DNA of 64,000 nucleotides from assembly GCA_947179485.1 (NCBI GenBank), contig OX359249.1:39294250-39358249 (forward strand), written 5' to 3'. This DNA comes from Allacma fusca. Its lineage: Eukaryota; Arthropoda; Collembola; Symphypleona; Sminthuridae. Shown here piece by piece: positions 9,306-60,093 of the stretch (the first letter of the stretch is position 1; each line of letters opens with the position of its first letter). The position numbers and the translations under genes are program-made. The notes under the pieces are model-generated. The model had not been told where the DNA came from. It searched no databases and worked only from the letters and a program-made list of their open reading frames with translations.

Positions 9306-9457
9306 ATTGGTAGAAAGTTGGTTCGTTAACGTTTGAACTTTTTCTTGCGCTTCTCCTAGCTCACGCTTTAATTTCCGAATTTCGTTGGCCTGCCTTTCTT
9401 CCTGACTGCTGTAGATTGAAGAGGCCGTGGACACAAGGCTTAGGGATGAACCATTAA
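9306..9457 (-). CDS. sick: NAV exon 16 of window: SLSLVST motif and start of coiled coil
   Basis: 152 nt: 2 nt and 50 codons, ending in phase 0. The acceptor is ATATTATTATAG and the donor AAT|GTAAGT. It reads NGSSLSLVSTASSIYSSQEE, then a heptad-like charged helix (IRKLKRELGEAQEKVQTLT, NQLSTN). Human NAV2 has GSSLSLVSSTSSLYSTAEEK, then IHKLRRELVASQEKVATLTS in the same order, so this is the clearest match in the window. In the family the coiled coil continues with AHLVAAFE and later the AAA-type ATPase. Those exons are not between 1 and 9305. Confidence 0.96.
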
Positions 9458-9996
9458 CTATAATAATATGTCCATCAAATGATTTTTATTTAAACATGCA
9501 ACGTGATATTGACAGCAGTCTCGACTAGGTATACAAAATTTTAAAGCAGTTTTACTAATTATGATTGAATTTTAAATTTGAGGTTTGTTGGATCAACGAA
9601 GGTTAAAAATGGCTATTAAGAACTGAAAATGAGGAGAAAAAAATAGTTAATAAACGAAGTTTTTATACCCTTCCCAATAATTGCTTTTAAGCACATATGT
9701 ATGTATATATAGATACCAATTTGTAATGAAAGTATGGTGTAGGATACATATTTTTCAGAGTAAGTACTTCTCTACGGCAGAAGAAATAAGTACATCTCCA
9801 TAATACAATAGTACAAGCCTCACATCAAACCCAAAAGAAAAAAAAAAGAACTTTCCATTCATAACCCAATAACCCTTCGTTGGTGTACCTTGAATAATTA
9901 TACGAAAGACAACTAATCTTGAACTCAAAGGCTCTCACATGGGATCTTTTACTACATAAAAAATTTCAATGTAGAAAATAAACCATAAAATCTTAC
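9458..9996 (-). other. Intron, 539 bp
   Basis: Codon split 1+2, giving Ile. Nothing recognisable inside. Confidence 0.88.
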
Positions 9997-10115
9997 TCTC
10001 ATCTTCCTTGGTGGCAATTTTGGCTAAGAACCCGGAATAAGGGGACATACTGAGACGAACACTGTGGTTGTTTGCAGGTGTTGATGAGTATGGTCCTTGT
10101 CCTACACCAGCCAAC
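9997..10115 (-). CDS. sick: NAV exon 15 of window: linker before SLSLVST motif
   Basis: 119 nt: 1 nt, 39 codons, 1 nt. The acceptor is ATGATGAATAG (poor polypyrimidine tract) and the donor A|GTAAGA. It encodes LAGVGQGPYSSTPANNHS, then VRLSMSPYSGFLAKIATKED, then E. The open frame continues upstream of the acceptor, so the acceptor was fixed by the phase of the previous exon. In vertebrate navigators the same place before the SLSLVS motif holds a Ser-rich linker. Confidence 0.88.
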
Positions 10116-11291
10116 CTATTCATCATAACGGACATGAGTATTTCAAACGTGTGCGTCAAGTCATATTTTATTTCATTTTCACGTCCAGTCAAGCCCAATC
10201 ATGAGACCCTTCATAACCCTCCACCAAAGCCTTATATGGTTAACGATGGAAAGGGCTTGAGGCAGACATTTTTTCTCCAACAGAAAATTGATTTTTGCAT
10301 AATGCATGTGTGTTCGAAAGCCGATATGTCCAGTAACTTTACACACAAATTCCATATCCCAACTCGTCTGACCCTACCCATCCTGCCAAGTTCATTTTAC
10401 AAGAGTAAACAAAAACCCCTACCTTTAGGAAACACAAAAAAATTAAACTCAACTCTGGATTGCATAGTTCTCATCTACAGTATGAGTCTGTGTGCACGAG
10501 CCTCAAATATGAATGCAGTCATTATTAAGTATTATTGAAGTATTTCATACATACATATACATATATGGAGGTCCACGACTCAATCTGCTCCCACAACAGA
10601 AACACTATTAAGCTTAAAAAATCTACAAATTTATACGTAAAAAAAAAATTGAAAATATCTTTTTGTACTGGGAACTATTATTATGAATCTTGAATGACCC
10701 AAGGGTTTAATTATAACAACCTATATATAAAGATGAACTGAGCCAAACATGTAATTTTAGCCTGAAAGATGGAAACTGGTCCTCCTTATTTTAATCCATC
10801 CAAAATATTTTTGGTACTTTATATTCCCTATAATAGTTTAATAGAATCATCCCTAATATGCAACAACGGCTAAATAAAGCATCTAGTTCAGGAATGAAAC
10901 AGCTCACAATTAGCCTGGAATTCCTCGCTCACCAATGCTAGTAACACTGCGTAGATCTTTTGTTAATTAAACAGTATTAGTTTTTGATTCATGGTTACTA
11001 CCAAGATTTATTTGTTTTTCTTCAAATGAAGTCACGAAGCCAGCCGAGACAATGATACGACGTCATTATGTGTAACAAAATTTGCATGTAATTACCAGCT
11101 CAGAAAGATCGCAGCTACTTGGGCTCTTTCGTAGTATCATGGTATAACTATTTAGGTTCACAATTGAAAAGTAATTTCAACTGGACAGTTCTGATAAGTT
11201 TTGTCATAACTCATTTCAAATCACACAGCATAATATTTCTCTCCACAGACATGAAAGAAACACCCAGTATCCTTCGTAAAAGTCAACTTAC
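10116..11291 (-). other. Intron, 1.2 kb
   Basis: Codon split 2+1, giving Arg. A plus-strand frame of 156 codons (10068-10538) starts inside the neighbouring exon and runs through this intron. It has no domain and is probably chance. Nothing else seen. Confidence 0.82.
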
Positions 11292-11381
11292 CGACTGGAG
11301 GTACCATGCATTGGTGATGTTGGGATGTTACCAATGCCAGAAGGAAGCTGTGTACTGTAGTATTGATTGACGTCATCTGAC
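11292..11381 (-). CDS. sick: NAV exon 14 of window: 90-nt linker exon, frame-neutral
   Basis: 90 nt: 1 nt, 29 codons, 2 nt. The acceptor is CATGCTGCAGAG (chosen over the CAG two bases earlier, because only this one completes the Arg codon left by the previous exon) and the donor CG|GTAAGT. It reads SDDVNQYYSTQLPSGIGN, then IPTSPMHGTSS. The length is a multiple of three. The longer same-strand frame across 11221-11607 is in another phase and not coding. Confidence 0.88.
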
Positions 11382-14370
11382 CTCTGCAGCATGGATGGAT
11401 ACAGTTTTTCTGATTTTGTCGATCTGTACGAACAAGTAAGTCATTGAGAATCAATACATGAATAAGTTCTGAGCCCCAACTTGGGACCAGGAACCCATGA
11501 AATTGAAACATTACATGTACCATATATGCATGAACCAATTTATTCAAATTTTGAGGACAGGCAACATAAACTAATACGGAAACTTTAAACATTTTTTCCA
11601 GGCACAAACATACACATGAAAAAATGAGATAAAAGCTAAATACAAAACTCTCAATCGTGGGCTAAAAACCTGCCTAAATATGATATAACATACACATGCT
11701 AATTCACCATTTCAAAATTTCAGCGAGCGCAAAACTTTATGTAGGGGGTTACAATTGTCCGTGTGAAATGTAGATGAGAACCCTATTAAATTCCTTCACA
11801 TGTTCTTGTGAAGTTAGTTATACCTATAGATAATTCCAAATGTGTCAAGGAATTGATTTTCACATGTTTATTTGATTTTTTGTCTTAGATTTGCATTGAT
11901 TTCATATGTCATGTAAACCTTCAAGCAAAATACAGAAGAAAAATTTCTCAACAATCACTAGAGCCAATCCAGCCCAACTACTTGTTAGTAACTACGTCTA
12001 CGTAAACTTAATTTGGTGAAAATTAACGCCATACCAGAATAGCAATAATAATTATTGTAGATAGATATATCGCACAAGCATGCTTTTCATCAACAAAAGC
12101 ATCCACCTTGCAGCAACCATAATATTATCTGTAGGTATTCTTATTTCCTTCATTTGCATCTCATGCATAATGCATGGAGGCTGAAACTGAACACACTCTG
12201 TAATGTGAATCCATGTATACATGTATAATAATCCACCTACCAGCTGTAGTATCTGTAGAAATTCGTCCAAAGTAATATCTCATTTCAACTTCCAATACAA
12301 CCCTAATTCTGAGTAATTTATATTACTTCATCTATATGTATACATGCCCTCCATAAATGCACTAATCATGCAAGAAGATTATTTGAAAGAAAGGGGGTTT
12401 AAGGTTCTACAATATAAAATTTAAGATTCAGGACTCAATCTAAGTAATTACGTATAACTCAAGTTGATACCTTTCATTCACAGAAATTTACACAAGCCCC
12501 GTATATTATATATCTAGAGCCTTTCAAACAGCAAAAAGGCAAAAAAAAACATGATGCAGGTGTTTAAGAATACTGCAAATAAACTATGTAATTTGAATAT
12601 ACACGCAGGAGTTTTCCCCTTGGAGTTAAACAAAGCTGCTCGCATTATTAATTTTCATTTCGACAGACCTTGTATAGTCCTATAGGACTGGTGAACCTAT
12701 GGACTACGGGCTGTAATTATGTGCTTAACTAATACAAAAAACTAACAATAAGCTACACAACTAGCTAAGTTAGCTGGTAAAAAAAAGCATGTACTTGCAA
12801 TCTATTTTATCTACTTTTTCAGTTCATTGAAGTTGGAAGCCCGCTTCAACCCTTTGCAGGCATGAAAGCGATGGTAATTAAAATTAAAATGCGGGTGTTT
12901 GTAATGCTTTATACAGTGTAAAATTGACTAGAACCTACTCGAGAATAGCTACAATGAGTTCACATAATAAGTCTGACAACAGATGAAAAAAAAAAGAACA
13001 TACAATTCTATACGCCAAATAAAATGGTTACAGGTGTAGAACTTAAGCTTCACAAAATAGCTGAAACTTGAAACACATTTTCTATCCTACTTTAGCAACT
13101 TGGACTGACTAGACGAAATACGAGAAGCTACAAGAGCACAATGAAATGAGAGGATCCAGTAGTGAAGATTACCTTGGAAAAGTCCTCTCTCGAAAATGGC
13201 TTTACAAGCGAGGAGGACGGGATAAACGCCATTTCATTAAAATCAATAAAAAATTAATTCAATTAGATTTTCAACTTTGACCTTTTAAAACATCACCAAT
13301 GTAAGACATACAAAACTTCACATGAAAACTGACATACTCGGAACTCATACACTCATAAAATCATGAAGTTTGGTTAAACTTGTTAAAACAATATTTAACG
13401 TTCCAGTTTACTATTTACAAAGGATTTGCGATATGCTCCTATGTATGCAACCCAAGTTTAAAAACCCCTTGCTGAATTCGATGAGATGTAAGAATGCTAT
13501 GAATTTATGTTTCATCCACCAATAATAAATTATTATTCTAAGTGGCACGTGGCAAGCAAAACATTATTCTATTAATAAAATCATTTAAAATTTAACATTT
13601 GAAATTCTATCAAATGCTAAATTTTAAATAACTATTGATAAATTATTTGAAATATCGCAATGCCCCAAGAAGCCGATGTTTTAAATATTAAAACCGAATT
13701 GTCATACTATAACAAAAATGTAATTATGTTTCCAAAATTAAGTACTAAAACCCTGCAGGCTCTATCACAATTTCTTACTTATGTTTAAGTAACTAAAATC
13801 AAATTCTTTTTTCAGATAGTGCAGCAAGATATCTCTCAGAAAATATTACCAAGATGCTTTTTCACTCTCATGAATGCTAAGATCAATAAAAGGAAACAAA
13901 AACTAGATTGCTGATATTTTACGAATATACGACAAATAGTTACACATGTGTACACGATACGTATGGATAGTCTGTGCAAGTAGGGCTGAAACGTGATCAG
14001 GAATTATATTTCTTTTGAATAAATAAATTGAGTTACACAAACCCAATTCAGTTATTTTTGTACTTCCTACTGATTGTTAACCATCCGAATTAGAGAGCCT
14101 ATCGTATGATCCTCAAATACTACAAAGAATATTTTAAAGAATATTTGAAACAAAGTTGTAGTATTAGAAGAAAGAAGAAACATTGGATTGCTGATATTGA
14201 GCAGATAAAATGGATCCCTAGAAATATAATTCAGGACTCCCAATTCGTCTGTATGTAAACCATGTTCTTCCTTCGGAAGAATAATGTTTGCTATTCTGAG
14301 GAATGCTTTACCTGAAGCCAATTTTAGAGCGGTTAATGCCAGCATATAATTAATGAAAATATTTTCATAC
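11382..14370 (-). other. Intron, 3.0 kb
   Basis: Codon split 2+1, giving Arg. AT-rich, with no recognisable gene or element. Confidence 0.82.
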
Positions 14371-14539
14371 CTAATGCTGTTACTGCGATTGAGTCTGGGG
14401 CTTCTGGAGGGACTCGTTTCATGTTGATGATTAGAGATTCTTCCTTGAGTAAGGCTATTTGAACGCACGTCGCGTAGCTGGGCCGCCATGGAGGAAGTTG
14501 AACTTAGAGACTCCAAACTTTCCGCTTCTGTCATACTTC
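14371..14539 (-). CDS. sick: NAV exon 13 of window: Ser-rich exon ending SNSIR
   Basis: 169 nt: 2 nt, 55 codons, 2 nt. The acceptor is GATACTTTTAG and the donor AG|GTATGA. It encodes SMTEAESLESLSSTSSMAAQ, then LRDVRSNSLTQGRISN, and ends SRSPRLNRSNSI(R). Human NAV2 has MMRSNSIPAQD at the matching distance before the SLSLVSS motif. The plus-strand frame 14488-14805 overlaps the 5' end of this exon and is not a gene. Confidence 0.92.
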
Positions 14540-15678
14540 CTAAAAGTATCACAAAAGATGTCCAGTGGAAATTTCATCACAGGGCTTTGCACGATGACAA
14601 AAGTAACAAAAACTTACTGCTTGCATTAAAAGTTGCAATTCTTGGTATACATATACACACGCACTTACTAGTTATTGCTAAGACTACAGACGGAACCCGA
14701 GAATGTGGGGTACAAGTACAAATGTATAGTCTATACGTACGTAGTTTTGTACACTTGGCACTCGCTACTACGTGCATCAACACAGAAACAAGAAGAAATG
14801 GGTAAATGAACTTTAGCTGTTCAAATTTTGTAATATTCGCAATTAGTGATAACGGACTACCTTTATATTACGCAATGGGGAATTTCGTTTAAATAGAAGG
14901 GCACAAATTTAGAGAATTGCCTCTACTCTACGTGAACGTGCCAACTTTAGCGTAATTTTCCAGATACATTGAGAAACAACATGATTAGGAACAAACTACA
15001 TCATTTGATTTTACAAACAAGAAATGCACACCGGTGCGGATTATGCTATTCATACCCATGGAGTTTACAAATGAGGTTTCTCCACTTTAATTCTCTAGCT
15101 GTTTCGTAGGTCATCAAAGAGAGTTCCATAGTAAAACTCTCGGGATTTTTGAGGCTCATGAACCCCAAGAAATAATAAATATGAAATCCTTGCCGCATAA
15201 TCATCCCTGAACATCTCCCCTCGCAAAAATAAATAAATCCGAATAGAAAGATTTTATAATAATTATTAATAATAATTTAATCTTGCGTAGTATCGAAACT
15301 GGTGCTAGGAACGCATGATTTTGCAAACGGAATTCTTTAGTTGTTAATTCTGAAATCAGCACTAAAGCCTACTAGTACATGTCTACCATTTTTCCAACCC
15401 ACGGAAGAATACATAAAAGTCGAGTATGCGCGCACTAAATTATTCCATGTTCGTTGTAGTCGAATAAACTGTTAATTTTATTGAAACTTCGTGATAAATG
15501 AAACTGATACCCCAGCTTCCAGCATTGAAACTGCTTGGCTCTAATTCGCAAGTCTACTGCTTTCATCTGTCTGTACTGACGAATAAGATTTCTCAGAAGA
15601 AGTTACTTCGTTCCTTAATGGACTACTCAGTCAATAAGTAATGATATTAGGTCGTACATAAATAAAATTAACACTAAC
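14540..15678 (-). other. Intron, 1.1 kb
   Basis: Codon split 1+2, giving Gly. AT-rich, with a TAATTATTATTAATAATAAT stretch near 15260. No gene seen. Confidence 0.85.
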
Positions 15679-16719
15679 CTCCGCTGATCAGACGATTGGG
15701 TGCACTGGTGATAGAAGACGCATATCCTGTGCTATGACGCATCCAAGAGTAAGGACTGCCCATTGTAGAATTTACGTTTGCAAAAGCTTGGATTTCACTA
15801 TAATTCGAGTAGCCACCAGTATCACTAAGAGATCCATCATTCATGACTTTATTGTATCTTGACATTCTTTCTTTGCTAGCATTAGGAGTTCCGTAAATTT
15901 GCTGGTGCTGCTGTTGTTGGATTGCAGCCAGTATTGCAGCATAATCTGCTGAAGATGTTGCTGCTTTGGGTAAGCTCTGAGAACCCAGAATTCGTTCTCG
16001 AAGACTCTGAGATAATTGTGTAGCAGTCGGTGTGGTCAGAGAAAGAGACTTGTATCCCGGTTGAGACTGAGCAGAAAATGAGCCTGAATTTCTGGAACAA
16101 GTTGAGGATGCGTATTCTGCATCACTCATACCATGCTGTTGCATTTGGTAATGTTGCTGGTGGTGATGGTAAGAATGATGATGCGACTGATGTGGTTGTG
16201 CTGGGTGATTATGTGAATGATGTCGATTCATTTCATGTAAATCATTCGTAGTCTGTGTACCACCACTTATCTTGACTTTAGTCCTGGTTTTAGGACTTGC
16301 TGTGACAACAGATCCTCCCATCCCTGAACCCATAAATGAATTCGGATGCATTTCATTTCCTTTCGAATCAAGTCGAGAGAGCAGAGACACTTGAGCTGCC
16401 TTGTATTCCTCAGCAGTGAGAAGTTCTTTTTCTGATCGACCATCGCTGCTGATTTTTCCACAAGGCGATATACTGTACTTGGTTATGACACAATTTCCCG
16501 ATCCATTTGAGCGTCGGACATAGCCATAGGACGTTGGTGCTGCCTTGACTGAATTCGATCGTTTCCCGTCGGTACTAATATTAGAGTTTCCTTTATGAAC
16601 GTTATGACTGTTGTGACCATGTCCAGAATTATTTCTATGTCGATCTTTACTCTCACGGTCCCGCTCCTCTTTTACGAGTCGATCTGCCATCTCCTTCCCG
16701 TAATACTCTTCTTTCATTC
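15679..16719 (-). CDS. sick: NAV exon 12 of window: 347-codon His/Gln-rich linker exon, frame-neutral
   Basis: 1041 nt: 2 nt, 346 codons, 1 nt. The acceptor is AAATTTGTGCAG and the donor G|GTTAGT. It starts MKEEYYGKEMADRLVKEERD, a charged helix of about 30 residues that may be a coiled coil. A His/Asn stretch and a predicted helical ELLTAEEYKAAQVSLLSRL follow. A His/Gln tract comes next (15 or more His within 35 residues, about 16120-16230), then TQLSQSLRERILGSQSLPK, AILAAIQQQQHQQ and a Ser/Tyr-rich end (YSWMRHSTGYASSITSAP). Its length is a multiple of three with equal phases, so it could be skipped without a frameshift. Plus-strand frames at 16030-16251 and 16595-16780 are shadows. Confidence 0.94.
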
Positions 16720-17080
16720 CTGCACAAATTTTATGGTAACACAAGATCAATTTCCTTTCCACGTGGTTCCACCGCAATAGCAGCAAACTTATTTTAGTAA
16801 ATAAATAAATTACAAATGCTGTATATACCATGCGTAAGGCTTATTGCTTAGTTTATACTTCATACGCAAAAATCTTGTTCTACACGCAACATATGAGAGT
16901 ATACATGGAGCGCTTAGAAAGAAACAACGGGTAAATGATAAGAAAGTACAAACATGAAAAAGTAACTGCACGTTGTGTGTTACTCACCGTAGAATAACCA
17001 AAGGAAAGAAAATGAATTCAAAAACGCATAAAAAGCAACAATGATTAAAATTCAGGGCAAATATCTTGTTAACACCGTAC
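16720..17080 (-). other. Intron, 361 bp
   Basis: Codon split 1+2, giving Gly. It contains no stop in the downstream exon's frame for the last 110 nt, so the true acceptor was chosen as AAATTTGTGCAG by phase. Nothing else visible. Confidence 0.85.
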
Positions 17081-17397
17081 CCATCATTCCCTTCTTCTTC
17101 GAATCTGAATTATTCATGGTTTTGGCGTCAGGTCTCTTGCCACTTGAGGTTGTTTGCTGAGATGATTGACAAAAAAGGCTTGACAGTGCTCCAGACTGAA
17201 TCCCATTGCTAGAATGATGCAAGAGTTGTGATGAACCTGCTAAATTTCCGTGTTTGTCTCCAACCAGAACTTTCCCATTTATTTCTGATCTCAAATTTTG
17301 CTGATAATGATTATTTTCGACCCCGAATAAAGTGTTGTGGCCATTGTCTTTCTTCTCAGGCAAAATACAAGATGTGCTTTCGCGTGTAGCCTGGTTT
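17081..17397 (-). CDS. sick: NAV exon 11 of window: divergent linker exon
   Basis: 317 nt: 1 nt, 105 codons, 1 nt. The acceptor is TATTTTCCCTTACAG. The donor is G|GTACGG, weaker than consensus but giving the right phase. It starts NQATRESTSCILPEKKD and ends DSKKKGMM. It is polar, with His/Asn/Gln-rich parts (NNHYQQNLRSE) and no similarity to vertebrate navigators that I recall, so it is probably a lineage-specific linker. The exon is supported by its open frame and by phase agreement with both neighbours. Confidence 0.85.
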
Positions 17398-17516
17398 CTG
17401 TAAGGGAAAATAAATCCAGAAGTAAGCAATTTTGTGAAACCAAATTATTCAAATGCATTTACTGATATACGAAGACGAGATTTAACAGTTTTCCCAATCC
17501 TATGAGCCAGTCTTAC

Positions 17517-17662
17517 TTAATTGATGAGTTTATGTCGCCCTGAGACGTAGTGTGGCTTCCTTGCTTTTTACTTGAATTTCCACTACGAGAGCCAACAACG
17601 CGATAAATGATACTTTGGGGATCAACTAGTTCTTTCTTTTTTGGTGCTTCTGCGGGGACTCG
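17517..17662 (-). CDS. sick: NAV exon 10 of window: linker exon
   Basis: 146 nt: 48 codons and 2 nt, phase-0 start. The acceptor is TTTCTACCTTTGTAG and the donor AA|GTAAGA. It reads RVPAEAPKKKELVDPQSIIY, then RVVGSRSGNSSKKQGSH, ending DINSSI. No named domain. The basic cluster is consistent with microtubule binding. Too short for an open-frame listing, it is supported by clean splice sites and matching phases. Confidence 0.9.
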
Positions 17663-17798
17663 CTACAAAGGTAGAAATAAAATCACAAGCGTATTTATAG
17701 CTATTTCATGTAAACTTTAAATTTAAAAGTTTTTTGGTTTAAAAAACTTGTACAGGTCGACAATGTTAGGAGAAAATCTCATTTAATTTTCTACTCAC
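17663..17798 (-). other. Intron, 136 bp
   Basis: A short phase-0 intron between the DDSSSLSSG exon and the next linker exon. It has a good TTTCTACCTTTGTAG acceptor. Nothing inside. Confidence 0.9.
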
Positions 17799-17913
17799 CT
17801 GAAGGCTTGCATACGGACTAGATAACTCAGAGTTGACTGAAGAACTTGTCAAATCCGTGGGGATTTCATTCAGATCCGAAATTCCACTTGATAGAGAACT
17901 TGAATCGTCGAAA
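17799..17913 (-). CDS. sick: NAV exon 9 of window: DDSSSLSSGISD motif
   Basis: 115 nt: 1 nt and 38 codons. The acceptor is GGTGTTTCCAG and the donor CAG|GTGAGT, near consensus. It begins FDDSSSLSSGISDLNEIPTD and ends SSPYASLQ. Human NAV2 has WDDSSSVSSGLSDTLDNIS at the same place after the GYMSDGD region, which makes this one of the most diagnostic exons in the window. The segment is acidic and Ser-rich and probably disordered. Confidence 0.95.
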
Positions 17914-29378: not shown

Positions 29379-29553
29379 CTATCTTCAGTGATGAGAGCGT
29401 GCTTGTTGCTACCGCCTTTAGATGCGTCCTTCGATCTTTGAGACTGATGAATTCGTCGAGAATAAATGGAAGCACCACTTTCAGAAAGGTAACCATCACT
29501 TGGTCGATTCCCATTGTTTCCAGCCATCAATAAATCTCCATCCGACAAGTATC
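29379..29553 (-). CDS. sick: NAV exon 8 of window: GYLSDGD / GYLSESG motif exon
   Basis: 175 nt: 2 nt, 57 codons, 2 nt. The acceptor is GTCTTGTTAAAG (a modest polypyrimidine tract) and the donor AG|GTAATC. It reads (G)YLSDGDLLMAG, then SDGYLSESGASIYSRR, and ends HALITED. Human NAV2 has the paired GYMSDGDILG and GYMTDGGLNLYTRSL motifs in this place, so this is a diagnostic family signature. The open frame continues 8 codons upstream of the acceptor before a stop. No other AG lies in that stretch. Confidence 0.92.
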
Positions 29554-30384: not shown

Positions 30385-30591
30385 CAGTTCCTGTGATGTC
30401 CAAATTATCGATTTCTGTATAATCATAATCTCCAGGGGTAGATGAGTAATGACTAGAAGTATACTTGTTGGGTGTTACTTGCTGCCTTCGAACCACGAGG
30501 CGAACAGGGTCACAATAGGGATTGTAGGCATGGCGGTTCGTAATGCTGTTAAGGACTCTGCTGGAGTTATTAGGACTCTCCCGGTGCGGGA
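30385..30591 (-). CDS. sick: NAV exon 7 of window: Tyr-rich linker exon, frame-neutral
   Basis: 207 nt: 2 nt, 68 codons, 1 nt. The acceptor is CCTTGTTTTTAG and the donor G|GTGAGT. It encodes PHRESPNNSSRVLNSITNRH, then a Tyr/Arg-rich part (AYNPYCDPVRLVVRRQQ) and GDYDYTEIDNLDITGT. The length is a multiple of three and both ends share the same phase, so skipping it would keep the frame. I know no domain for it. Position and splice fit are the evidence. Confidence 0.88.
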
Positions 30592-30895: not shown

Positions 30896-32583
30896 CTATT
30901 CGGTTAAGAGGAGGATGATTCGCATTTGGGGATTTAGGAGACAAGAACCCTGAAGAGACACTCGGGGTTTTGACATAACCATATGGGGAGTTACGTAGTA
31001 ATGGTTCCATAGGTGTAACATTGACCATAAGTTCATCTTCCTCACACTCCACTATGACACCGCTTGATGACTTCATGGAGTTCAAATTGAGAGCATCATC
31101 ATTTGTACAAGGACTAGTTGAGGAGTCGGATTTGGACATGGAGGAGATACTGGACGAGTCGTTAGAGAAGGTCTTGTTCGTGTTCCCGTTACTCGGATTG
31201 GATGCCATGGGTGAGGCATCGTAAGGATCCTTATTATCCTCCGAATTTCGGCTTTTATCAAAATTGACAAGTTTTCCCTTCAATAAAATAACACTAGCTT
31301 CCGAGGAGTTGGAATTGGATTGACTCAAAGTGGAGTCCATACTAGACATGGATGTAATGACGTTGGAAGGCGTTCCAGCTCCACTAACACTGGAAACACT
31401 GGGCATGGGAGAAACCATGGCAATACTCACACCATTGGGAACCATTTCATTTTTATTGGGTTTCTTAGGACTGGAGCTGGAGTCCATGGTAGTCATTTCA
31501 GGAGAGAAACCAACTGTGACATTCTCTTTGGACGTCGACTTCGAAGTAAGGACTTGAGTCGTACAAAAACTACCATTAGAAACTACACTAGAAGACATTG
31601 ACGGCACTACTGAAGATGACACTTTATTATTCGGTTGTTTACCATTAGGCGAGGATTTTACATTGTTTACACAGTCTTTGGTAGTTAAATTGGCATTAGA
31701 AGGCTGCGTGGAGGTCGGAATGGTCTCCTTAACTTCCTTGGTGACAGTCATTTTCGTGGTCCCTTTGACTGCTGCAGTGGGTTTCGGAATTCCGGTTCCA
31801 TTCCCAACGAGGCCGTTCACGGAAGACATTGACGCATTTATATTATTTGTATTGGTCACTAAATCCATTTGAGAATTATTTCCTGACACTTCATCTTTTG
31901 AGTTGGAATTTCCATTTACATTACTCAAATTAGCGGCTACAATTAAGCTATTTCGGGTTGGTATTCCCGTTCCAGAGAACCGATTTTTACTTTCTCGAGA
32001 TGTCCCATTCGAAGCAACACCATTTGGTTTGGCTGGTCTCATGAAACTATACCCACTGGAGTTACCATTTGAACTTGCTATGGAATCACTTGAATTCACA
32101 GCACTCACACTGTCCATAGTTTGACGGGGATTTCTTAGCTTCGTTTCGATCTTCACTTGTTTTTCTCTATCTTTATCTAATTTCCTTGCTGGAAGACTAT
32201 TTTCAAACGGGCCTGTCTGGGAAATCGGCACATCTTTACAATTCCCTACACTAACACTACACCCATTTGAGTCTAATTTTCCAGACTGAGCTTTAATGAT
32301 TGGCGATGATCCTTTGGCTGAAGCCGATGAATCCACCACTGACTCCTTCCTTGATGACTTCGGGGAATGACTGACTTTTGATTCTTTGCTAGATATGGCC
32401 TTACCAATCTTCTGCCGGAATCCTTTGATTGCTAAACGCGGAGTAGACACTGAATTGTTGACCAGATTTTGACTCTGAATTGATTCCACGCTAGAGCTCC
32501 CGTTGGCCGAATGTTGAACGATACTTTTAAGGTTTCCCGAGTCTCTGTCTTTATTTGTCACTGTAGGCCCCTCCACCGAACCC
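30896..32583 (-). CDS. sick: NAV exon 6 of window: 562-codon Ser/Asn-rich linker
   Basis: 1688 nt: 1 nt, 562 codons, 1 nt. The acceptor is AATTAAACTAG and the donor G|GTGAGC. It is the longest exon here and is one uninterrupted frame, rich in Ser, Asn, Thr and Lys, so almost certainly disordered. It opens with GSVEGPTVTNKDRDSGN. A basic patch follows (AIKGFRQKIGKAISSKESK), then two TGIP motifs (31959-31970 and 31785-31796). The second reads TGIPKP, like SGIPKP in human NAV2. Near the end is an acidic spot (CEEDELMVN), then YGYVKTPSVSSGFLSPKSP, where several Ser/Thr-Pro pairs look like kinase sites. Plus-strand frames at 31021-31224, 31320-31601, 31663-31872 and 31903-32124 are shadows of this exon. 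Confidence 0.94.
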
Positions 32584-33668: not shown

Positions 33669-33768
33669 GCCTTGGTCTCACTACTCAGGCTGACGGATGA
33701 GTCAGATCTTTCTGAACGAGCGGAGCTAAAACCACTGGAGCTGGAGGTTCTCTTTGACCCTGTCGAAT
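33669..33768 (-). CDS. sick: NAV exon 5 of window: Ser-rich basic exon
   Basis: 100 nt: 2 nt, 32 codons, 2 nt. The acceptor is TACTAACCGCAG and the donor GC|GTAAGT. It encodes STGSKRTSSSSGFSSARSE, then RSDSSVSLSSETK. Dense Ser with interspersed Arg/Lys is typical of the microtubule-binding navigator linker and of phosphorylation-rich segments. It is too short for an open-frame scan and was found from splice signals and phase agreement with both neighbours. Confidence 0.9.
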
Positions 33769-37200: not shown

Positions 37201-37370
37201 TTTTTATTTTGTCCCCTCCTTTGTCCTTCTCTTTGAAGAACTTGAACTTCTCCAACATGGACGAGTTAGCTTTGCTGTTGGCCACATGATTAGAGGACGC
37301 GAGATTGACAGAGTTGACAGAGTTGTTGTTTTGCGAACGGACGGAAGATTTTGACTGGACTCCACTGTTC
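37201..37370 (-). CDS. sick: NAV exon 4 of window: SMLEKFK motif
   Basis: 170 nt: 1 nt, 56 codons, 1 nt. The acceptor is TTGATTTCAG. The donor is AAAAA|GTTAGC, weaker than usual but the only one giving the phase needed by the next exon. The frame has Asn/Ser-rich sequence (SQNNNSVNSVNLASSN), then SSMLEKFKFFKEKDKGGDK. The SMLEKFK core is the same as in human NAV2 (SMLEKFKLV), in the same position after the CH domain. Without the GTTAGC donor the frame would read on only one codon to a TAG. A different frame of this exon is longer on the same strand but has no family similarity. Confidence 0.88.
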
Positions 37371-38407: not shown

Positions 38408-38567
38408 TTGACGTTACTGATGTGCTTCTCATGTAGGGACGAGCGAGCACTTGATGGAGCTGATGGAATGGAGGTCCGAGGTGTCGGGATGAAGGACTGT
38501 GGTATTCCCGATACGGCAGATGGGCTTGTTGATCTAGAGCTACTTCCTGATGCCGGCTTCACATTCC
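38408..38567 (-). CDS. sick: NAV exon 3 of window: Ser/Pro linker with three SxIP motifs
   Basis: 160 nt: 2 nt, 52 codons, 2 nt. The acceptor is CTGTCATACAG and the donor AA|GTGAGT. It reads NVKPASGSSSRSTSPSAV, then SGIPQSFIPTPRTSIPS, and ends with SLHEKHISNVK. Three [S/T]-x-I-P motifs (SGIP, SFIP, TSIP) fall within 16 residues at 38464-38511, with Arg and Pro next to them, which is the usual setting for EB1-binding motifs. Navigators are known plus-end trackers. That this cluster mediates it is inference. Confidence 0.88.
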
Positions 38568-47835: not shown

Positions 47836-48127
47836 TACACAAACTCGTCGAATTATTTTCAAGCTCGTTTTTCTTGGCATCACAAAAAAAGTTGTCCCTA
47901 TATATTTTGGGGCTAAAAATCTGTAGGCATATTGTACTTGTATATATAATTATGTTAGAAACGTTTAGGGAGAGACAGAATTATACAAAAGTGAGCATAT
48001 ATGTATAGTCTCTATGTTGAGACAGTGTTGTATTCAAAGATATTTACATACATACTCTCCAACTCTCCTGTGAGCATAGGCGGATGAGTTCTGGCAAAAT
48101 CCCGTTTTGACAAGCTTCCCTCAAGAC

Positions 48128-48145
48128 AGAGAGAGAGAGAGAGAG
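48128..48145. repeat. GA dinucleotide microsatellite
   Basis: About nine AG/GA units in the 18.4 kb intron. Confidence 0.92.
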
Positions 48146-49110
48146 TAAAAGGAGAATTTTCTCAGAGGGGAATTCAGACACATTGTCCACAATGACAAAT
48201 GATTTAGAGAACAACAGCTTCGGTGTATGGCTAATGATAGCTCTTAATAAGTACTTAGCTTGGCGGCACTATCCCCTCTTTACTTATACCTACAGGATAG
48301 ATACATGGTAGTGTAACAGAACGTTAATGATATCAGTGAGCACGGTCTTGAAGCACATATTTATTTGTGTGTGTGTGTTGCAGGAGGATAATAATTTAAA
48401 CTTTAATCTCCACTGCCAACTTCAACGGAGTAATCAAAGACGGAGGGAGGCTGAAGGTAGAAGTCTCTTGAATAATATTTTCTTATTATTTTCTCCACAA
48501 TTAAAACATGTTTCTGAATTCAGTGAGGAAGGACAGGGGCAGAAGACATTATGACAAAGAATTGAAATATTTTCTTTGACAGCGACTCCTGCCACTCCAC
48601 TAGTCCGGGGACAGTCACAGTCACAATTATTCCAGAGCCAGTTGAAATGTTCAGAGAGCAAGTGTTGTAATTCAGCTCGAAATTTATGACTGGTACAAGT
48701 GTATCATGAATAAAGTGAATCAAGGAAAGGTAGTCAAGATACTAAAAGAACTACCGTACAGGAGTATCAAGATGAGATGAGAATAAGGATAGAGAGTCAA
48801 CAGCAAACTGAAGTACCGGGTTCCTACCGGGTGAAGAAAGAGCGACCGAAGCGGGACAATTCCCGTCTTGTGCTTTTCCTTGTTCACATGCGTCCCTATT
48901 CATTGCTGTAGCCGTTATTTTTCCCCATTTTCGTCTCTACGAAATTAAATGGAGGGGTATATATACCTGTATGTATTTCCCTGAAAGTAGTAAGCCCGCG
49001 GTGGAGTTTTCCTTACGACAGTATTTTTATAATGTACAGTAAATTCGAAGGGAAAAATGAGTCTGGGTATGTAGAGTCAAACAGTACTTACGTAAAATAC
49101 ATAAATTCAT

Positions 49111-49146
49111 TCTCTCGCTCTCTCTCTCTTTCTCTCTCACTCTCTT
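49111..49146. repeat. CT-rich imperfect microsatellite
   Basis: 36 bp of CT units with single-base breaks (TCTCTCGCTC, then CTCTTTCTCTC). Confidence 0.9.
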
Positions 49147-50880: not shown

Positions 50881-50901
50881 AGAGGGAGAGAGAGAGAGAG
50901 A
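50881..50901. repeat. GA dinucleotide microsatellite
   Basis: A GAGGGAGAGAGAG-type tract of about 21 bp in the 18.4 kb intron. Confidence 0.9.
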
Positions 50902-53900
50902 AGGGAAATACTTTTGGAAAAGGCCCAAAGTTTTGTTGGTACTGAAAGTTTTTCAGGCAATAAAGTTTAAAATTAAGTCGCCGGTTATACCTCCAAATAA
51001 GTTCAAGTTTAAGCTGTTTAAGTGCTCGTTAGCAAAGTTTAATGTGAGCGTCAACCAATGTACTCGAGACAGTTTTCTCAATAACTGGACTTGTGTAATT
51101 TCCATCAGCTGGGTGCTACGGCTCTACCTTAGGGCCAGTTGAGGACCCGTGGGCTTGTACATATAGAATATTCCGTAAAAGTATGTAGACATACATAGGC
51201 ATGATGAAGTCATGTCGGAGGAGTGAGAAGGATTCTGTATACATTAGGATATCTCACGGGGTAGAATTCCTTCTACACAATATGAGCCCTGTGTTATAAA
51301 ATCCGATGGTTGAATTAAAACTGACGCTAATTCCAAAGGAGTAATTGCTCTCTAATTGTTTCAAGCTCAAGGGGGTGGATGTTGTTGCTGGAGGAACGCT
51401 AATATTTTTTTAAGCGTATGGCTCCTTCAATAATTCTGCATATATAGTAGACACCTTTTTTGTGAAGAGAGGCCAGGCCTGAAGAAAAGGATGGTTGTCA
51501 GGCAGAACACTTTACCTCAAAGGCACCAGCTGCTTGTCATCATTCAGCCATTTTCTTGTGGGTTCTTTCCCCAACCAAAAAGCGGAAGAAAATAAGGTCC
51601 CTTGAACATTTGCCTCCAGATATCCCTGTACTGCTGCTGGAGTGTATAATAATATGGGCAAAAATAATTTCTCAAAGTCAGGACATCCTGAAACATTTCC
51701 CCACGCTGGAATTCAAATAATCGACTCACATACCGTGCTCTCAGCTTGAACGTTACCCAAAATGCAACTGCACTTTACCAAACTTGTGCTCATCTAATAA
51801 AATATATGTCTTGGTAATCTCCTTCCTCCTCTCTCTTTGTGATTCAGCTGAAGTTCCATCTCTCCTTTCCCTCTTTATGCATGGGGTATACCACTTTCCT
51901 AAATCAAGTTAACAGCGGACGAAGAAACTGAATCACACACATGTACCATCTTCGGGCTGCACTTTTTTATGCACCATCACTCCTTAAGCCAGCTCAATCA
52001 GTCGATGGAGTTTTATTCGAGAACTTCTACTCAACCATTTTTTCCCAATAAAGTCAACATTTGTACTTGCTTGTCTTGTATTAGTTTTTGTGGGACTTTT
52101 CCCAAGACCATTTCCATACAAGATTAGTAGCTTATCCTCTGTAGAAAAGGGAATACCATCGTGGGATTCTCTCCATACAAATCATGAGCATCCGTGGTAG
52201 TAACATGTTCCAACTAACCAAAACCAAGAGTGGGGAGTATTTACTTTCAGTGAGTATGTACAAGTGCAAGTGGTTTAAGCTAAAATACTGTACAAGTGAG
52301 GGTTCCAGAAACCGACAGTGAACCATGCTTGAAAAATATCTTTCAAACTTTTCAAACCCTCTATAATTCATACTCATATGCGTACATAGTCCTTTGGTGC
52401 AGAGGGACTAGCTATCTACTTATAGACATAGATACAGAATATATCTATATGCCCAAACACAGAGATAGAATGCCTTCCTGTACTAAAATTAAGTACCAGT
52501 CTGCTGATGGAGCATAAAACTCTACATTTTTATGACAAGTTTTGTGCAACTAAACAGTGCAAGACCGAACCAATCCCTACCATTAGCCTGTGTCCGCAGA
52601 CGTGTGAACTTTATCAATTTTTATAAACAGTTTTTATTGTTATTATGTCGTTTCTCTCACACTGCCTGACCCATGTAAAAGCCCTGTTTGTGTCTGAGCA
52701 ATTATGTTTTCTTCACTATACAGCTATGATAATTTAATGTTAAAAGTTCCTGTACCACCAAAATCTATGTTCATCATGTACCTAAAATTATTTGAATTAA
52801 GCCCATTTGACTTTATAGTATACACTTGAAATAAGCACAGGGTAATAGGGAAGGGAAATTTTCTCAAGTAAGTATGCTGTAGCAAAACATCATGCCGAGA
52901 CGAAACATTATTTATTCAACGTATTTGAGGGAGAGAGAAATAATGAAAATAATTGGCGACTATATGTACAAGATTGGTAGTGTGTGTACGCTCCTGCTTG
53001 TTCAGTCATGTAATGTGCTGTGAGGGTGTCAAGCCTAACCATTAAAAATGCTCATGAAGATTCTTTGGAATTAATGCGGAAACCGTTATGGGGCAGGAGC
53101 AAGAACGAACCTCTTCTCAAAAATCCATGTTATCCCGTCAAGTTGAACATTTTCCCATCACATTAAGTCCATTTACAGGAACCAAGAACTAGGTACAATT
53201 ATGGTATTTGGTATCTACGTAAATTGGAAACACGTAAACTATGAATGAAAATAGTACATGACAACTCTGACAAATGCTTGCTCATCTTATCTACATTGTG
53301 AAAGTATTTAATCTTGAAGACTGCTACACTGTCTCTATCTGTGTACTAGTGTGAGTTGAAGGATATTAAAGAATGAAGGAGAGGCTTGGCCCTCATAACA
53401 ATTCTCAAAGGCTTTCCCATGCCTCTACAAAATATAATGCATAGATACATATGTATAAACATCTTACCATAATGGTTTTTCCAACCTATACTGATCCTGT
53501 AAAGCAAGCCTAATGTGAAGTCACGAAGAAATTGTAATACCAAATGATGATCCTATCATGGTTGACTCTCTGGCTACGTTTTATGTACACACACGAACAA
53601 ACAGACAGGACATGATAAATGATATGAAAGGATGATACTGGATCCAAGTTTCCAAGTGAGCACAGGTGCATTTGCATAGCGTAATGAACGTGAAAAGATG
53701 TTTTCCTACCGACTCATTTATGGCTTTGATTAAAAGAATGTGCACAATAACGGAAAGTAAACCCTTTAAAAGAAATATTAGCAAATGTTTGAACACAAGG
53801 GTGGGTTATTTATTTCCAAGTACATACTATTCATACATGATACAAGATACGCTCATGCATAATGATAATGAGTTGCACTGCACTTCCATTAAACTGTACA

Positions 53901-53937
53901 CTGTGTACCACCCCCGTATAAGCTCTCCAAAGAGTCT

Positions 53938-53953
53938 GAGAGAGAGAGAGAAG
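53938..53953. repeat. GA dinucleotide microsatellite
   Basis: Seven GA units, then AAG. This is the last of the GA/CT tracts in the large intron. Confidence 0.88.
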
Positions 53954-56900
53954 AGTCACAAACACGTGAATTTTAATCATGAAAGCTCGTGGTGGTCGGC
54001 ACTTACAATTAGAATGCAATATGATATGTAATGTAAGGATGAGCGTGTTCTCATTCGGGTTTCTCTCCTTCCCATTACAGAATCCATGGGGTGACTTTAT
54101 AGGCAAATTGTTGTGAAAAATTATTCACGAAAAGTCAATAGAGGAAATTATTAATGGTGGCGTCAGTTGGAGTATTATTCTATTATGGTCTCAATTTTTT
54201 TAATAACATCTTCCGTTCCTCACACCCCTTTCCCTGTAAAAATAATTGTAAAGGTTTAATCAATCCCCTCCTTCCAAAATCACAGTCTTAAAAGGATCCT
54301 TCCAAGAACTCTGTTTTGAACTTTGAAATAAAGGTTGTTTAGAAACTTTTTAGAGAGGCAAATTCCCTTAAAGAAATTCTTGGCATCTTATTGATTTCCT
54401 GGATGCATTTACTAATGAAAACACTTTTCACTGAGCTTTTATCCTATCCAAATTGAATTCCATTCTGAGCAGATACACTTGTGTGTCAAAACCATGAGAA
54501 ATAATCATGAGAGCATTGAGTCTGATCCTGACAATGAATTCACTCGCAGAAAGGCAACCTCACAGAATTTCAATATCATTGGCAGGCAGACAGTAGAATT
54601 TTTTATGATGCGTAACGTGTAAGATACAGAGAAATGCACATGTGTACTTCAAACATAAAGTTGACGCTTGTGAGGAGGGTTATACCCTCCGAACGATCCC
54701 ATGTTTGAAATGTACACATAGTAGGTAGTATCTGTGTACACCCTTTTTCCTATGCCTTAACTGCGACAACAAAAGGAGCATGATGCACACGCATTGCAGA
54801 GTAAATACTTAATAACACTGGTTATGCAATTCCTACATAAGGAAAGCCATGAACACGAACTAAGAGCTTATCGTTTCGTAACTAGAAACTTATGAGTGTC
54901 TGAAACATAGATATAGCTAGCTATCCCATAGATGACTATTTGTATGTATGTATGTTTGTACCCCTCTGAAAATATATACAGAGATAAGAGACGTGTGAGA
55001 TAGATGCTATGCAGTGTATACGGGAAGCGTTATCATCGATAAACAATGAACTGAACAGCTGCCCTGTGCAGTATTTGTATGCAGTCTTGAACCGACGATA
55101 TCAAAGTGGCACAAAGTAAGTCCATCAGGAGCGTAAAACTCGGCAACTTTCTCACTCTCACTTGAGCCCCAGTTCATAGACGCAACACATTATTGTTTTA
55201 CGCTCCCATTTATGTCTCCGTAGTTAGTGTAGTATACTGTAACGAATGGCTCTCCGAGACAATCCATGGTAAGCGAAATGACGCGGGATACTTTCCTTGA
55301 GCACTAACGCCGAGATCGAGCAAGTCTCACATTATATTACATGCACTCACAAATGAATTTCCACTCTGAAATTTAGTTTCCGTCAACGAAACTATTGACT
55401 TACTTTTTCGTCTCCAATGTCTACTATAACCGCTACTTTACGCTACTCGGAAGAGAGTAAAAACAGGGAAAGATGACTAACCTCATATGTTCTGTAGGGT
55501 TTGGTTTGTTCCGTCGTCCGAAGGACAACCTATACTTTCGACAACTATAGCCACCCCGTGTTTCCCAAACACAGTAGTAATGATGGAAAGTCAGAAAGGA
55601 AATTTTGTATCAAGTTCCTTGTTATTATGACGCGTGTGTACTAATCAATGAAAGTAGGAGTAGTTGATAATGGGAGCATTTTAAAACAATTCAACCCCAT
55701 CACAAGTCACTAATCTGAGGTGTTTATACAATTCGATACGTTCGTTGCTGCCTTACGAGGAGGGTGATCAGCACCCACAAGTCTTTACAAATTCGAGTTG
55801 CAATAGAGAGGTAGCACGCGAATGGGAAACCTACAACTTCATTCTCATCCACTACTACAAGTTATAATTATTACAGTGCTGTATAGTCCTTGCCGGCCAA
55901 AACCACTTCTATAAAGGCCATGAATTTTCGATTGAGTTACACATTATCAAATGGGCTTGATGCAAAGGTATACTTATTCTGCCAATTCCCGTAGTAGGTG
56001 CTTTCAGTTCTTAGGTTACCCACTGTTACCCCGGGAACTGTCTGACACAAACTTAGATCTTCCAACAACGGTGAATTACGATTTACGATCGTATTTCTCC
56101 ACTACCGCTTTTCCTGGGAAGGATACACACACGGGAAAACACGGAGGAAATGAAAGTAACTGAACAACAGGGAAGAAAATGATATCAGTGCTTAGGTACG
56201 GTGTACCCTATGTAACAACATAGGGGCAGAAAAATGATTCACAGGAACTGCAGTGAGCTTAGGGCACACTTAAACACGTTATATTAAGTCATGAGGGAGA
56301 GAAAAGGGACATTTTCTACAGATCGTAAATCAGAGTTGTTGGGGAAAAACTGTCGGTAAAAGCACGTACTGGAAACTCCAAGTGAGTCCATGCAAAGTGA
56401 AGATCTGAACTTCTGGCCATTCCTTAAGATATCTTATGAATTTTGTATGGCTTGGAGAGAACGACTGAAAAAGAAGAGGAGAGCAACTTCAATTGTTAGG
56501 TTTTGGAGGGATGAAGGGGGGAGGAAAAGATCCTTGTTGGTCTGGGCACTTCTAACATACATAGATACATACATACTTCAAGAAAACTAAATAGGAAAGT
56601 CGTAACTGCGTGGAAGATACTAGGGCTATTCCTCCTCTCGCTTATTACCTACTCTCCATCCTTCAACCAACACACATACACATACTTGATACAACCAATG
56701 CAGACACATTTATTTGGGAATGGTCTGCTCTTCTCCTCTCACTATTCAACCGGGAGTAAAACCCGGGAACTTATCGTTAGTTCCATGCATTTTACTTTAC
56801 TCATGAAAGAAAACTAACGTTGCCCCGCATATGCAATCATAATATACGGACCACATACTTGTCCGTATGTAACAGTCAAGTCCTCATCCCCCAAAAGCTT

Positions 56901-56993
56901 TGAATCCCTTCGATACACTACTGTAGATGCCAGTGCATACATATGTTATTTACAATTCCCCATACATAAAAAAAATCCTTGGGGTAAACTTAC

Positions 56994-57133
56994 CGCATGG
57001 AAATGCGTGAGGGCCATTCCCAATCCCTAGTGCTGATTTTCCTTTTTCTTGAGGAGTCTTCTTCGGTGTGGAGGCATTAGCAGGGATAGGAATGCTCGTA
57101 TTCCCCGCATGTTTATTAAATGGTGGTAGTAAT
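56994..57133 (-). CDS. sick: NAV exon 2 of window: basic linker with a TSIP motif
   Basis: 140 nt: 1 nt, 46 codons, 1 nt. The acceptor is ACACTTTCCAG and the donor G|GTAAGTTT. It starts with LLPPFNKHAGNTSIPIP, followed by a Lys-rich stretch (TPKKTPQEKGKSALGIG) and ends near HAFPC. The phase-0 reading has a stop after five codons, and only the phase chosen from the previous exon stays open. The TSIP at 57088-57099 fits the [S/T]-x-I-P pattern that binds EB1-type plus-end proteins. This exon has no strong family signature of its own. It is supported by clean splice sites and matching phases on both sides. Confidence 0.82.
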
Positions 57134-59845
57134 CTGGAAAGTGTAAAACCAAAATTATTTGTTTTTTTTTTTTTTTTTTCCGTCTTTGAAGCCTCAGCTC
57201 TCTTTTTTTTCTATTACTTAAGTTATTTTCATTGCTTTCATCTCACTGTTATTGCTACATAGTATTGGTGCAGAGATTCGAGGGAAAAAGGAATGTGAAT
57301 GAATGAGATTTGTAAATGCATGGCATTCATGAATGAATACATGCTTTAAGCTGACGAGTACTATTTGCTACATGTAGCTTCATGCCCCACAGACAGGCCA
57401 CCGACACTGGTTTCTCAAACATTTGACAAGTACTTGAAAAATGTACTGTGTATAGCCAGTGTAATGTCAGCCGGTTGGATGGGAGAAACAAAATAAGAGC
57501 TGATGAAGAGGTATTCTCTATTTCTTCGGGCAAAAAAGGATCTGTGTTGGGAATTGGGAATCACAAGGTTACCCTACTCGCTTTTCACTCCAGTACATTT
57601 CATCAAATACAGGCCTTAGCGCCACCTTCTTACTGCTACAAAAACTAAAGTCTCACTTCAAGTTAGTGCACTAATTCATAGAGGGCTAAACCAGCCAAAG
57701 TTAGAGTGGTGTAATAAAATGTGATTTTCTCAAAGTCTAACAAATCAACTGCTTTTCCGTCCAAAATGATACAACTACATTTGGAAATATAATTATTATT
57801 AATGTCTGCCAATGCAAAAAAAAAAAAATTAAATGAACATCCAGAAATTCAACAGGGATAGGATTTTTTTACAATCAAAATAATGTGGCTTTTCGGTTAG
57901 TTAAACATATTTTCTCTGTATACACTCTGGTTTTATCAAATGTCCAAACCGAGAATAGCAAACCAATCTGTAATAAAACTTAAAAATAGGTAATAAATGA
58001 CATGCTGAGAAATCCTATCGAAATTGATTTCTCTTTGTTCCGCATTAATTACAATTTTCATAGGAAATACGAAGGGAAATTTTCCATCAAACAGTAAGGA
58101 AAGGAAATTATATTTTCTGCAATTGATTATTTCTTCAATACATAGCATGAATGTATGGAGCTATGTACGCTAAAATCAGATCTCCTCGAGACGATGGGAA
58201 AGGTTTGAAAATCCGCATGTACACGCGCTGAAATGAAAGGAGAGTAAACACGGTTGCTAAAACAACAAAAAGTTTACGAGTCTCGATCCTTTGAGTAAAT
58301 GCTATTTAAATAAACTAAGAGGCAAGTACAAGTAACATAAACGGCAATCAGAAGTGGGAAAAAGGTTTGAAATGAAATCGAGCATAGAAATAGTCCCTTA
58401 GTGATGTTACGACTTAGCACACCCTGATAAATAAATTTTTTTAATCATATCTACATATTTGGGTAACGTCGCAAAATACATAATCGACGAGGATTCGGTA
58501 GCAAGCAGTCTGCCATCATCAGGCAATCAGCAGTAAATTACTGTGATGAAGCTGGCAGGAAAGGTATAAAGGAAACTTACAAACTTAAACATTTATGAGG
58601 CCCTGTGATTATATAAACATTATGTGGCAGCTTCTCGAAATAATAAAACAAGATCATAAAGCTTTTATCGCCTGGTTACGTCATCTTCCCAAGAGTAAAT
58701 TCCAAATTGTTGAGCTATTAAAAAAAGGAAAAGACTCTAGTGAGAGTTCCTCCGTAAATAGATGGTACATCGGGAAAACAGGAACTCAAATGTCAAATCT
58801 TGTCAGCGAGCAGAGGAAAAGGACAGGAACAAAATGTAAATGGTTAATTATATGGTTTCGAAAGTACAGCATAGTAAGGAAGGAATGCTCAAAAGTTTGG
58901 GCATAGCCCATATTAATATTATGAGCATACAGTGGGATATACGGGCCTTTCATTAGTGCTGGTAGTTAGTCAAAGTCAACCTCATGCTAAGATTTGTAAT
59001 TTCCGTTTTCTCCGTACGTCGCAATTTTATCTACATTGGGTGGCTACTTGATAACGAGATTGTGTGTAGCATATTGAGCTCCTACTATGTATATCTGTAC
59101 AAATGCAGTACATGTGTAAATACTTTAACTGCACTCCAACTTCGGGTGATCCTTCATATTTTTCCTGTCGTTTTCAAGTCCCATATATTTTTCTCTTTGT
59201 AGCTATTGTTTTTATATGCCTACTCCCTACAAAGAGAGTCAAGCCTTTAACGTCAATCTTGCAGGGAAAAATTAAATGACGCAAGCATGCCAAAATCTAC
59301 ATTGTTCATCGGCGTCTTCTGAGCATTTAACAATAAGCGTATATCCTTTGCGTAATAGTACTAATTCAACATTTAGCACGTGTACAAAGGGGTTGTGGAG
59401 AGACTCTCACGCGAAAAATTGTACCTTGTCACTGTCGGTGGCACGTTATTAAAGTGTAATCACGTAATTGAATAAAATTTAAGAAATTAGAGCAGAATTC
59501 ATGATTCGTTTCCATTGTATTGAAATTATCAGGAGTCACATCTAGAAACAATTATAATCCTCAAAGAACTTGGCTCACACACAACACCAATTCCGAATCA
59601 CACTTTGAGGAGAAGTCACAGAACGCCACTGTGGAGGCATATACACTAACTGTACTGTTAACTATACTTTGGAATGACTCTGTTGTGGGCAACATCAAGA
59701 GAGGTTATATTAGAAAAGCATGCGATGCCCTCAACCGAGACGAATCTTAAAGCAAATGAATTGTCAAGCCGTGAAAACTCAGGCTGTCTTGGACTCATAA
59801 ATGTAAAAAAGAGTAAAAGTAATGCCCAAAATTGATGAGACTTAC
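57134..59845 (-). other. Intron, 2.7 kb
   Basis: It separates the CH exon from the next linker exon (codon split 2+1, giving Lys). An uninterrupted T18 tract on the plus strand (57162-57179), which is A18 on the coding strand, lies about 30-45 nt upstream of the acceptor of the next exon. There is a plus-strand open frame at 58595-58906 (103 codons, no recognisable domain). I see nothing else. Confidence 0.8.
57162..57179. repeat. T18 homopolymer
   Basis: 18 consecutive T on the plus strand, about 30 nt upstream (coding sense) of the acceptor of exon 56994-57133. As A18 on the coding strand it is not a polypyrimidine tract. The length may be uncertain in an assembly. Confidence 0.9.
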
Positions 59846-60093
59846 TTGGAAGATTCCTGTGCGTGTTTTGGACCGACCGTTTTTATTCCAGTCTGTTGCA
59901 TTTCTGCTGATTGTTTTTGTAGATTGTGTCTATCACGATCTTGCTGCTTTTGTTGTTGCTTATATCTTGAGAGTTGGAAAAACAGACTTAGAATGGATTT
60001 CAAATGACCATCCCGTATGTCACGCGCAGTAATTCCTTCTAGGGAAACCCCAAGTCCAGCAAGGAATACCAAACACGAGTGAATATTGTCCAA
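59846..60093 (-). CDS. sick: NAV exon 1 of window: second half of CH domain plus Gln/basic tail
   Basis: 248 nt: 82 codons plus 2 nt. The acceptor TTATTTCAG lies right of 60093, and the exon begins in phase 0 with LDNIHSCLVFLAGLGVSLEG. The donor is AA|GTAAGT. The sequence aligns by eye with the C-terminal half of the navigator CH domain. The human counterpart has a VCLSFLAARGVNVQGLS stretch, then an IRNGNLKAILGLFFSLSRYKQQQ stretch; here it reads RDGHLKSILSLFFQLSRYKQ. A Gln/Arg/Asp-rich helix of about 30 residues follows and is probably extended. CH domains of this kind are linked to actin or microtubule binding. The first half of the fold, including the conserved Asp-Trp-Ala helix, must be in an upstream exon that I could not find up to position 64000. 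Confidence 0.94.

Follow-up and report, generated by a model that had tools for sequence, protein, structure and literature searches.

The window analysed here is a 64,000-nucleotide (nt) stretch of the genome of the collembolan Allacma fusca (contig OX359249.1, abbreviated C5; C5:39294250-39358249), from an assembly of 392.7 Mb in 91 contigs. Its minus strand carries a chain of 16 exons, running from 60093 to 9306, that on the evidence of the sequence is very probably the central part of an arthropod Navigator gene of the sickie/UNC-53/NAV2 type. This identity is accepted because protein homology is found at both ends of the chain. The first-pass annotation of the window had named the chain navigator/sickie, and the name is correct: the gene encodes a NAV2-like CH domain, SxIP-type motifs, two coiled coils, and the ubiquitin-like and AAA+ lid families of navigators. 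It is an ordinary ortholog of a known family, and its biology is otherwise as expected.

Gene model and its two ends

The full model consists of 31 exons encoding 3213 residues over 143,459 bases of the minus strand, from approximately 122.4 kb to -21.0 kb in window coordinates (C5:39273201-39416659). Negative coordinates denote positions before window position 1, and values above 64000 denote positions past the window's far end. Sixteen exons lie in the window and encode residues 686-2378; three lie upstream and 12 downstream, these 15 outer exons all being beyond the window. All 31 exons join in phase and end in a single terminal stop codon (TAA). Within the window the model is truncated at both ends: it begins partway through the CH domain (5') and breaks off within the first coiled coil (CC1; 3'). 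In the first-pass annotation the placement of exons is mostly plausible, but both ends of the gene are absent. With the candidate first exon N1 included, the modelled protein has a mass of 348 kDa and an isoelectric point (pI) of 9.08, within the range of navigators (>200 kDa, pI 8.2-9.5, a single gene in invertebrates), and the AAA+ exon used as a query finds one place in the genome. The outcome is an almost complete model of an arthropod navigator gene, in which the CH-to-AAA+ form of the family holds.

At the 5' end, the first window exon (r1) alone matches the human NAV2 CH structure 2yrn with an E-value of 1.5e-14. The first half of the CH domain is encoded by two exons at 81806-81689 and 79672-79620 on the minus strand, 16-18 kb past the window end, so that only the second half of this navigator-type N-terminal domain lies in the window. 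When the three exons are joined, the Pfam CH family is matched at E 5.6e-15, and human NAV2 2yrn ranks first in PDB at E 3.3e-39, ahead of the other 48 listed sequences, whose E-values are at least 6.1e-9. The joined domain shares 63 of 107 residues with human NAV2 without gaps. Exon N1 (628 codons, 122410-120527, minus strand) lies in an open reading frame (ORF) of 645 amino acids (aa) at window positions 122434-120500 on the minus strand and has a phase 0 donor at 120527 before the CH exon. It is a candidate N-terminal extension like that of Sickie isoform J; phase is all that links it to the CH exon, and its start codon is conjectural.

At the 3' end, CC1 is split at the end of r16 (9306) and resumes in phase 0 approximately 23 kb on, at -14100 (TLTNQLSTN/AHVVAAFEQSL), in the first exon after r16, which lies 14.1 kb below the window. 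The remainder of CC1 (-14100 to -17477) is followed by a linker, the second coiled coil (CC2; -18677 to -19079), a navigator ubiquitin-like domain, the AAA+ domain and the navigator lid, with the TAA ending at -21048. Pfam matches in this C-terminal part, all outside the window, are AAA_lid_NAV1 (E 9.4e-48), Ubiquitin_6 (Neuron navigator 1-like; E 2.4e-27) and AAA (E 4.9e-6). The AAA+ region contains the Walker A motif GPSGTGKS and the sequence VIILDN, and a Walker A pattern search over 264 kb returned one site, on the minus strand at window position -19817. A search for relatives of the AAA+ lid exon in genome and viral contig collections confirmed none. The resulting order, CH - linker - CC1 - CC2 - AAA+, is that described for navigators (PMC9877351).

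The coiled coils were judged by a crude heptad scan, in which the 25 best 28-residue windows, taken over the entire protein, all begin at residues 2375-2396 or 2659-2661. Both clusters fall where the two coiled coils are expected, nearly all beyond the window. Searched against PDB, a coiled-coil fragment of 60 residues found nothing significant (best E 0.56). Navigators carry one or more SxIP motifs, in a basic setting free of acidic residues, within a disordered stretch of the N-terminal half. Here four of nine [ST]x[IL]P sites (residues 839, 846, 1163 and 1221) have a basic, non-acidic context over four residues on each side, a test that is our own approximation of the published rule. All four are in r3 and r6, inside the window.

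These joins bear on whether two neighbouring genes, one upstream with the CH domain and SxIP motifs and one downstream with the coiled coils and AAA+ domain, have been wrongly bridged by the chain. Only phase and splice sites link the middle exons, and separate N- and C-terminal navigator precursors have been proposed outside Bilateria (PMC9877351). Against this, all the domains share a strand and follow the canonical order, every join from the first CH exon to the stop is in phase, CC1 itself is divided between 9306 and -14100 and reads through in phase, and the fly gene Sickie is fused according to the same source. A false bridge between two genes is therefore considered highly improbable.

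Exons within the window

The 16 exons are listed below in the direction of transcription. Penalties are those of a splice-aware dynamic programme run at three settings, splice-site scores are given in brackets or after the site, and 3-base periodicity (3-periodicity) is given as the number of null segments that match it.

r1: 59846..60093, minus; 248 nt, phase 0 in; CH domain, second half (LDNIHSCLVFLAGLGVSLEGI...SRYKQQQ)
r2: 56994..57133, minus; 140 nt; basic, Pro-containing linker; phase fit, good splice sites (5.6/7.1)
r3: 38408..38567, minus; 160 nt; SFIP and TSIP motifs of the EB-binding SxIP type
r4: 37201..37370, minus; 170 nt; weak donor 1.9; 3-periodicity matched by 14/300 null segments
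r5: 33669..33768, minus; 100 nt; Ser-rich; another frame better in positional base score
r6: 30896..32583, minus; 1688 nt; Ser/Asn-rich with two TGIP motifs; 613-aa ORF; 3-periodicity 0/300
r7: 30385..30591, minus; 207 nt; found at all three penalties
r8: 29379..29553, minus; 175 nt (GYLSDGDLLM...DGYLSESGASIYSRR); found at all three penalties
r9: 17799..17913, minus; 115 nt; found at all three penalties; donor 8.8
r10: 17517..17662, minus; 146 nt; found at all three penalties
r11: 17081..17397, minus; 317 nt; found at all three penalties; 3-periodicity equalled by 252/300
r12: 15679..16719, minus; 1041 nt; His-rich stretch; 388-aa ORF; 3-periodicity 5/300
r13: 14371..14539, minus; 169 nt; found at all three penalties
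r14: 11292..11423, minus; 132 nt; found at all three penalties; alternative acceptor 11381
r15: 9997..10115, minus; 119 nt; weak acceptor 1.7; found at one penalty of three
r16: 9306..9457, minus; 152 nt; start of CC1 (SQEERQANEIRKLKRELGEAQEKVQTLTNQLSTN); weak acceptor 0.5

The chain, which runs from 60093 to 9306 on the minus strand, has GT-AG at all 15 junctions and no stop codon, as first annotated. The exons of 100, 115 and 146 nt that had been singled out are present as r5, r9 and r10, and the dynamic programme selected them without being given these lengths, although the programme's codon score had been trained on seeds that included the interior of the 115-nt exon r9. The total of exactly 1679 codons is recovered in part: the best chain has 5079 nt, or 1693 codons, and 1679 codons with an open frame are reached by one weaker acceptor in r14 (11381 in place of 11423, 5.8 log units weaker). 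This was the single case among 201 alternative sites that gave exactly 1679 codons and an open frame, where alternatives above a score floor were taken singly or paired, in the same or a neighbouring exon, with r5, r9 and r10 held fixed. Two earlier rounds of boundary choices yielded no 1679-codon form. The shorter r14 deletes TKSEKLYPSMLQR, a segment that is presumably navigator-like. The r8 segment GYLSDGDLLM...DGYLSESGASIYSRR is likewise one that we take to resemble a NAV motif.

Several edges score poorly, namely the acceptors at 32583 (r6, -0.5), 10115 (r15, 1.7) and 9457 (r16, 0.5) and the donor at 37201 (r4, 1.9). These four are unproven and are listed as candidate sites only; the exact 5' edge of r6 is uncertain because its acceptor is weak. 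An alternative r16 acceptor at 9408 scores better (4.9), but its use deletes the segment NGSSLSLVSTASSIYS, which we assume to resemble the stretch before CC1 in human NAVs. The form of r16 listed above was chosen because of this motif, and that of r1 because of the CH homology. An in-frame ATG ATG is present at 10126-10115 on the minus strand, starting 11 nt upstream of r15 and next to its weak acceptor, and r15 may be an alternative start instead of an internal exon.

Assessment of the chain against chance

The first-pass annotation had offered splice phase alone as the basis of the reconstruction, and this basis fails. If exons may be no shorter than 90 nt and introns no shorter than 60 nt, 1.33e38 open 16-exon GT-AG chains connect the same end points, and 5.33e12 are left when splice-site scores of at least 2 are demanded. 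Because so many open chains exist, GT-AG junctions, closing codons and the lack of stops carry little weight. What is above chance is the pair of long ORFs, their 3-base periodicity and the protein homology at both chain ends. The two minus-strand ORFs of 613 and 388 aa exceed the 244-aa maximum reached across 40 windows simulated by an order-1 Markov model, and the periodicity of their exons is matched by 0/300 and 5/300 null segments, respectively.

The remaining exons were assessed with two scores that draw on the gene itself. The dynamic programme combines generic splice matrices with codon scores taken from the clearest exons of the gene to which it was applied, and its stability is partly circular because it was trained on parts of this gene. 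At each of the three penalties it returned r3-r14, 12 of the 16 exons, with unchanged edges. For r1 it chose a shortened version (59965) twice and left the exon out at the third penalty; r2 was recovered at two of three and r15 at one of three, and the r16 acceptor was placed at 9457 once and at 9408 twice. At these penalties the programme also inserted exons outside the adopted model, and a low-penalty run produced 120 exons, most of them false. The positional base score, trained on this gene's domain exons including r1 and hence also partly circular, is best in the model's frame for 12 of 16 exons. Position-specific base scores and 3-base periodicity are informative for the long exons N1, r6 and r12 and for an ORF in the intron after r16 (see below).

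Codon usage was also measured independently of the gene, from 18 ORFs (2364 codons) that are the longest open frames amid chaperonin and other CH loci, taken with the matched frame unchecked. It was dropped as evidence because most exons could not be separated from intron. For N1, which has no Pfam match, 855 of 1500 null segments score as high. Within the window, no Pfam match above the curated cut-off was found for seven ORFs, and ARAGORN and Rfam (gathering threshold) returned nothing.

Several observations weigh against the navigator chain as modelled. Four exons (r3, r4, r5 and r13) have a better positional base score in another frame, and most short exons are individually uninformative by composition, whether by codon or by period-3 measures; in r11, r14 and r16 the periodicity is below that of most null segments. 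The independent codon usage leaves most exons in the intron range, and even the AAA+ exons aaa3 and aaa4 are each equalled or exceeded by 835 of 1500 null segments. Joined as 1560 residues, r2-r15 have no Pfam match, and the support for them is limited to splice sites, position and an open frame. For the AAA+ region, PDB contains nothing closely related (best E 0.028). A genome-wide Pfam CH search returned 39 matches, and this gene, whose CH domain is cut by two introns, is not among them.

It could accordingly be asked whether the 16-exon chain is largely a product of chance, with only the long ORFs and the domain exons real and most of the short exons false. The 1.33e38 competing chains favour this reading, as do the short exons, which barely stand out by codon or period-3 statistics, and the lack of a Pfam match for any of r2-r15. 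It is opposed by the identical edges of r3-r14 at all three penalties, including the 100-, 115- and 146-nt exons, and by the 12 of 16 exons whose positional base score is best in the model's frame, both lines being partly circular. Overall a largely spurious chain is judged unlikely, and the Navigator assignment is retained. Some exons or edges may nevertheless be wrong, given the extra exons that were rejected and the inconsistent recovery of r1, r2, r15 and r16. For long-intron genes in general, GT-AG junctions and an open frame are satisfied by an astronomical number of false chains, and homology anchors or RNA are therefore needed.

Intronic open reading frame and a possible short isoform

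The intron between r16 and the next exon contains a 426-aa ORF at -3400 to -4677 on the minus strand (C5:39289572-39290849). Read from its ATG at -3427, it reaches a good donor (score 6.1) at -4608 after 1182 nt, or 394 codons, in phase 0. The genome contains one match to it, and its 3-base periodicity is reached by 2/300 null segments. The ORF has no Pfam match, and its independent codon usage is unremarkable (764/1500 null segments as high).

Most economically, this ORF would serve a short isoform as its alternative first exon. An internal promoter would then yield a short navigator lacking the CH domain and the SxIP motifs, with the intronic ORF spliced in phase to CC1 at -14100; the chance that this is so is put at about even. 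If true, the short isoform would swap the actin- and EB-binding N-terminus for a unique one. Such a form is not without precedent, because a shorter mouse Nav2 transcript persists when the CH-containing one is abolished, as reported in PMC9877351. A nested gene is possible as well. The dynamic programme had chosen the ORF as a constitutive exon, and this placement was rejected because CC1 would be interrupted.

Genome-wide family counts

Chitin_bind_4, the gustatory-receptor family 7tm_7 and the odorant-receptor family 7tm_6 are markers of arthropods and insects. The genome has at least 150 matches to Chitin_bind_4 and 53 to 7tm_7. The search with 7tm_6 gave no match in the genome, and the same search also gave none in any control genome. 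On these counts the genome is that of an arthropod and may lie outside the insects.

Proposed action and comparison with known navigators

Navigators are described as plus-end tracking proteins that bind EB proteins via SxIP motifs, with a CH domain that is thought to meet actin and an AAA+ domain of unknown activity (PMC9877351). The domains and motifs of the Allacma protein are read from its sequence, and the activities are inferred from the family. The SxIP motifs in the middle would bring the Allacma protein to the EB proteins of microtubule plus ends; the CH domain would engage actin, the coiled coils would oligomerise the protein, and the C-terminal AAA+ domain would act as a nucleotide-driven engine. 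Together, these parts may couple guidance cues to cytoskeletal change in growing axons. In flies without Sickie, the mushroom-body lobes are smaller and axon branches are shorter, and Sickie acts on cofilin through slingshot (PMC9877351).

Drosophila Sickie is the single fly Navigator, with an isoform B of 2197 aa and an isoform J of 2707 aa (PMC9877351). Sickie has the same order of CH domain, SxIP motifs, CC1, CC2 and AAA+ domain as the Allacma model, and its isoform J has an extra N-terminal part, as N1 would give here. The Allacma protein is longer as modelled (3213 aa with N1), in a comparison made by description. With human NAV2 it shares the CH domain (63/107 residues identical) and the navigator-specific lid and ubiquitin-like families at the C-terminus. 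Vertebrates have three paralogs (PMC9877351), whereas the Allacma genome has one AAA+ exon match.

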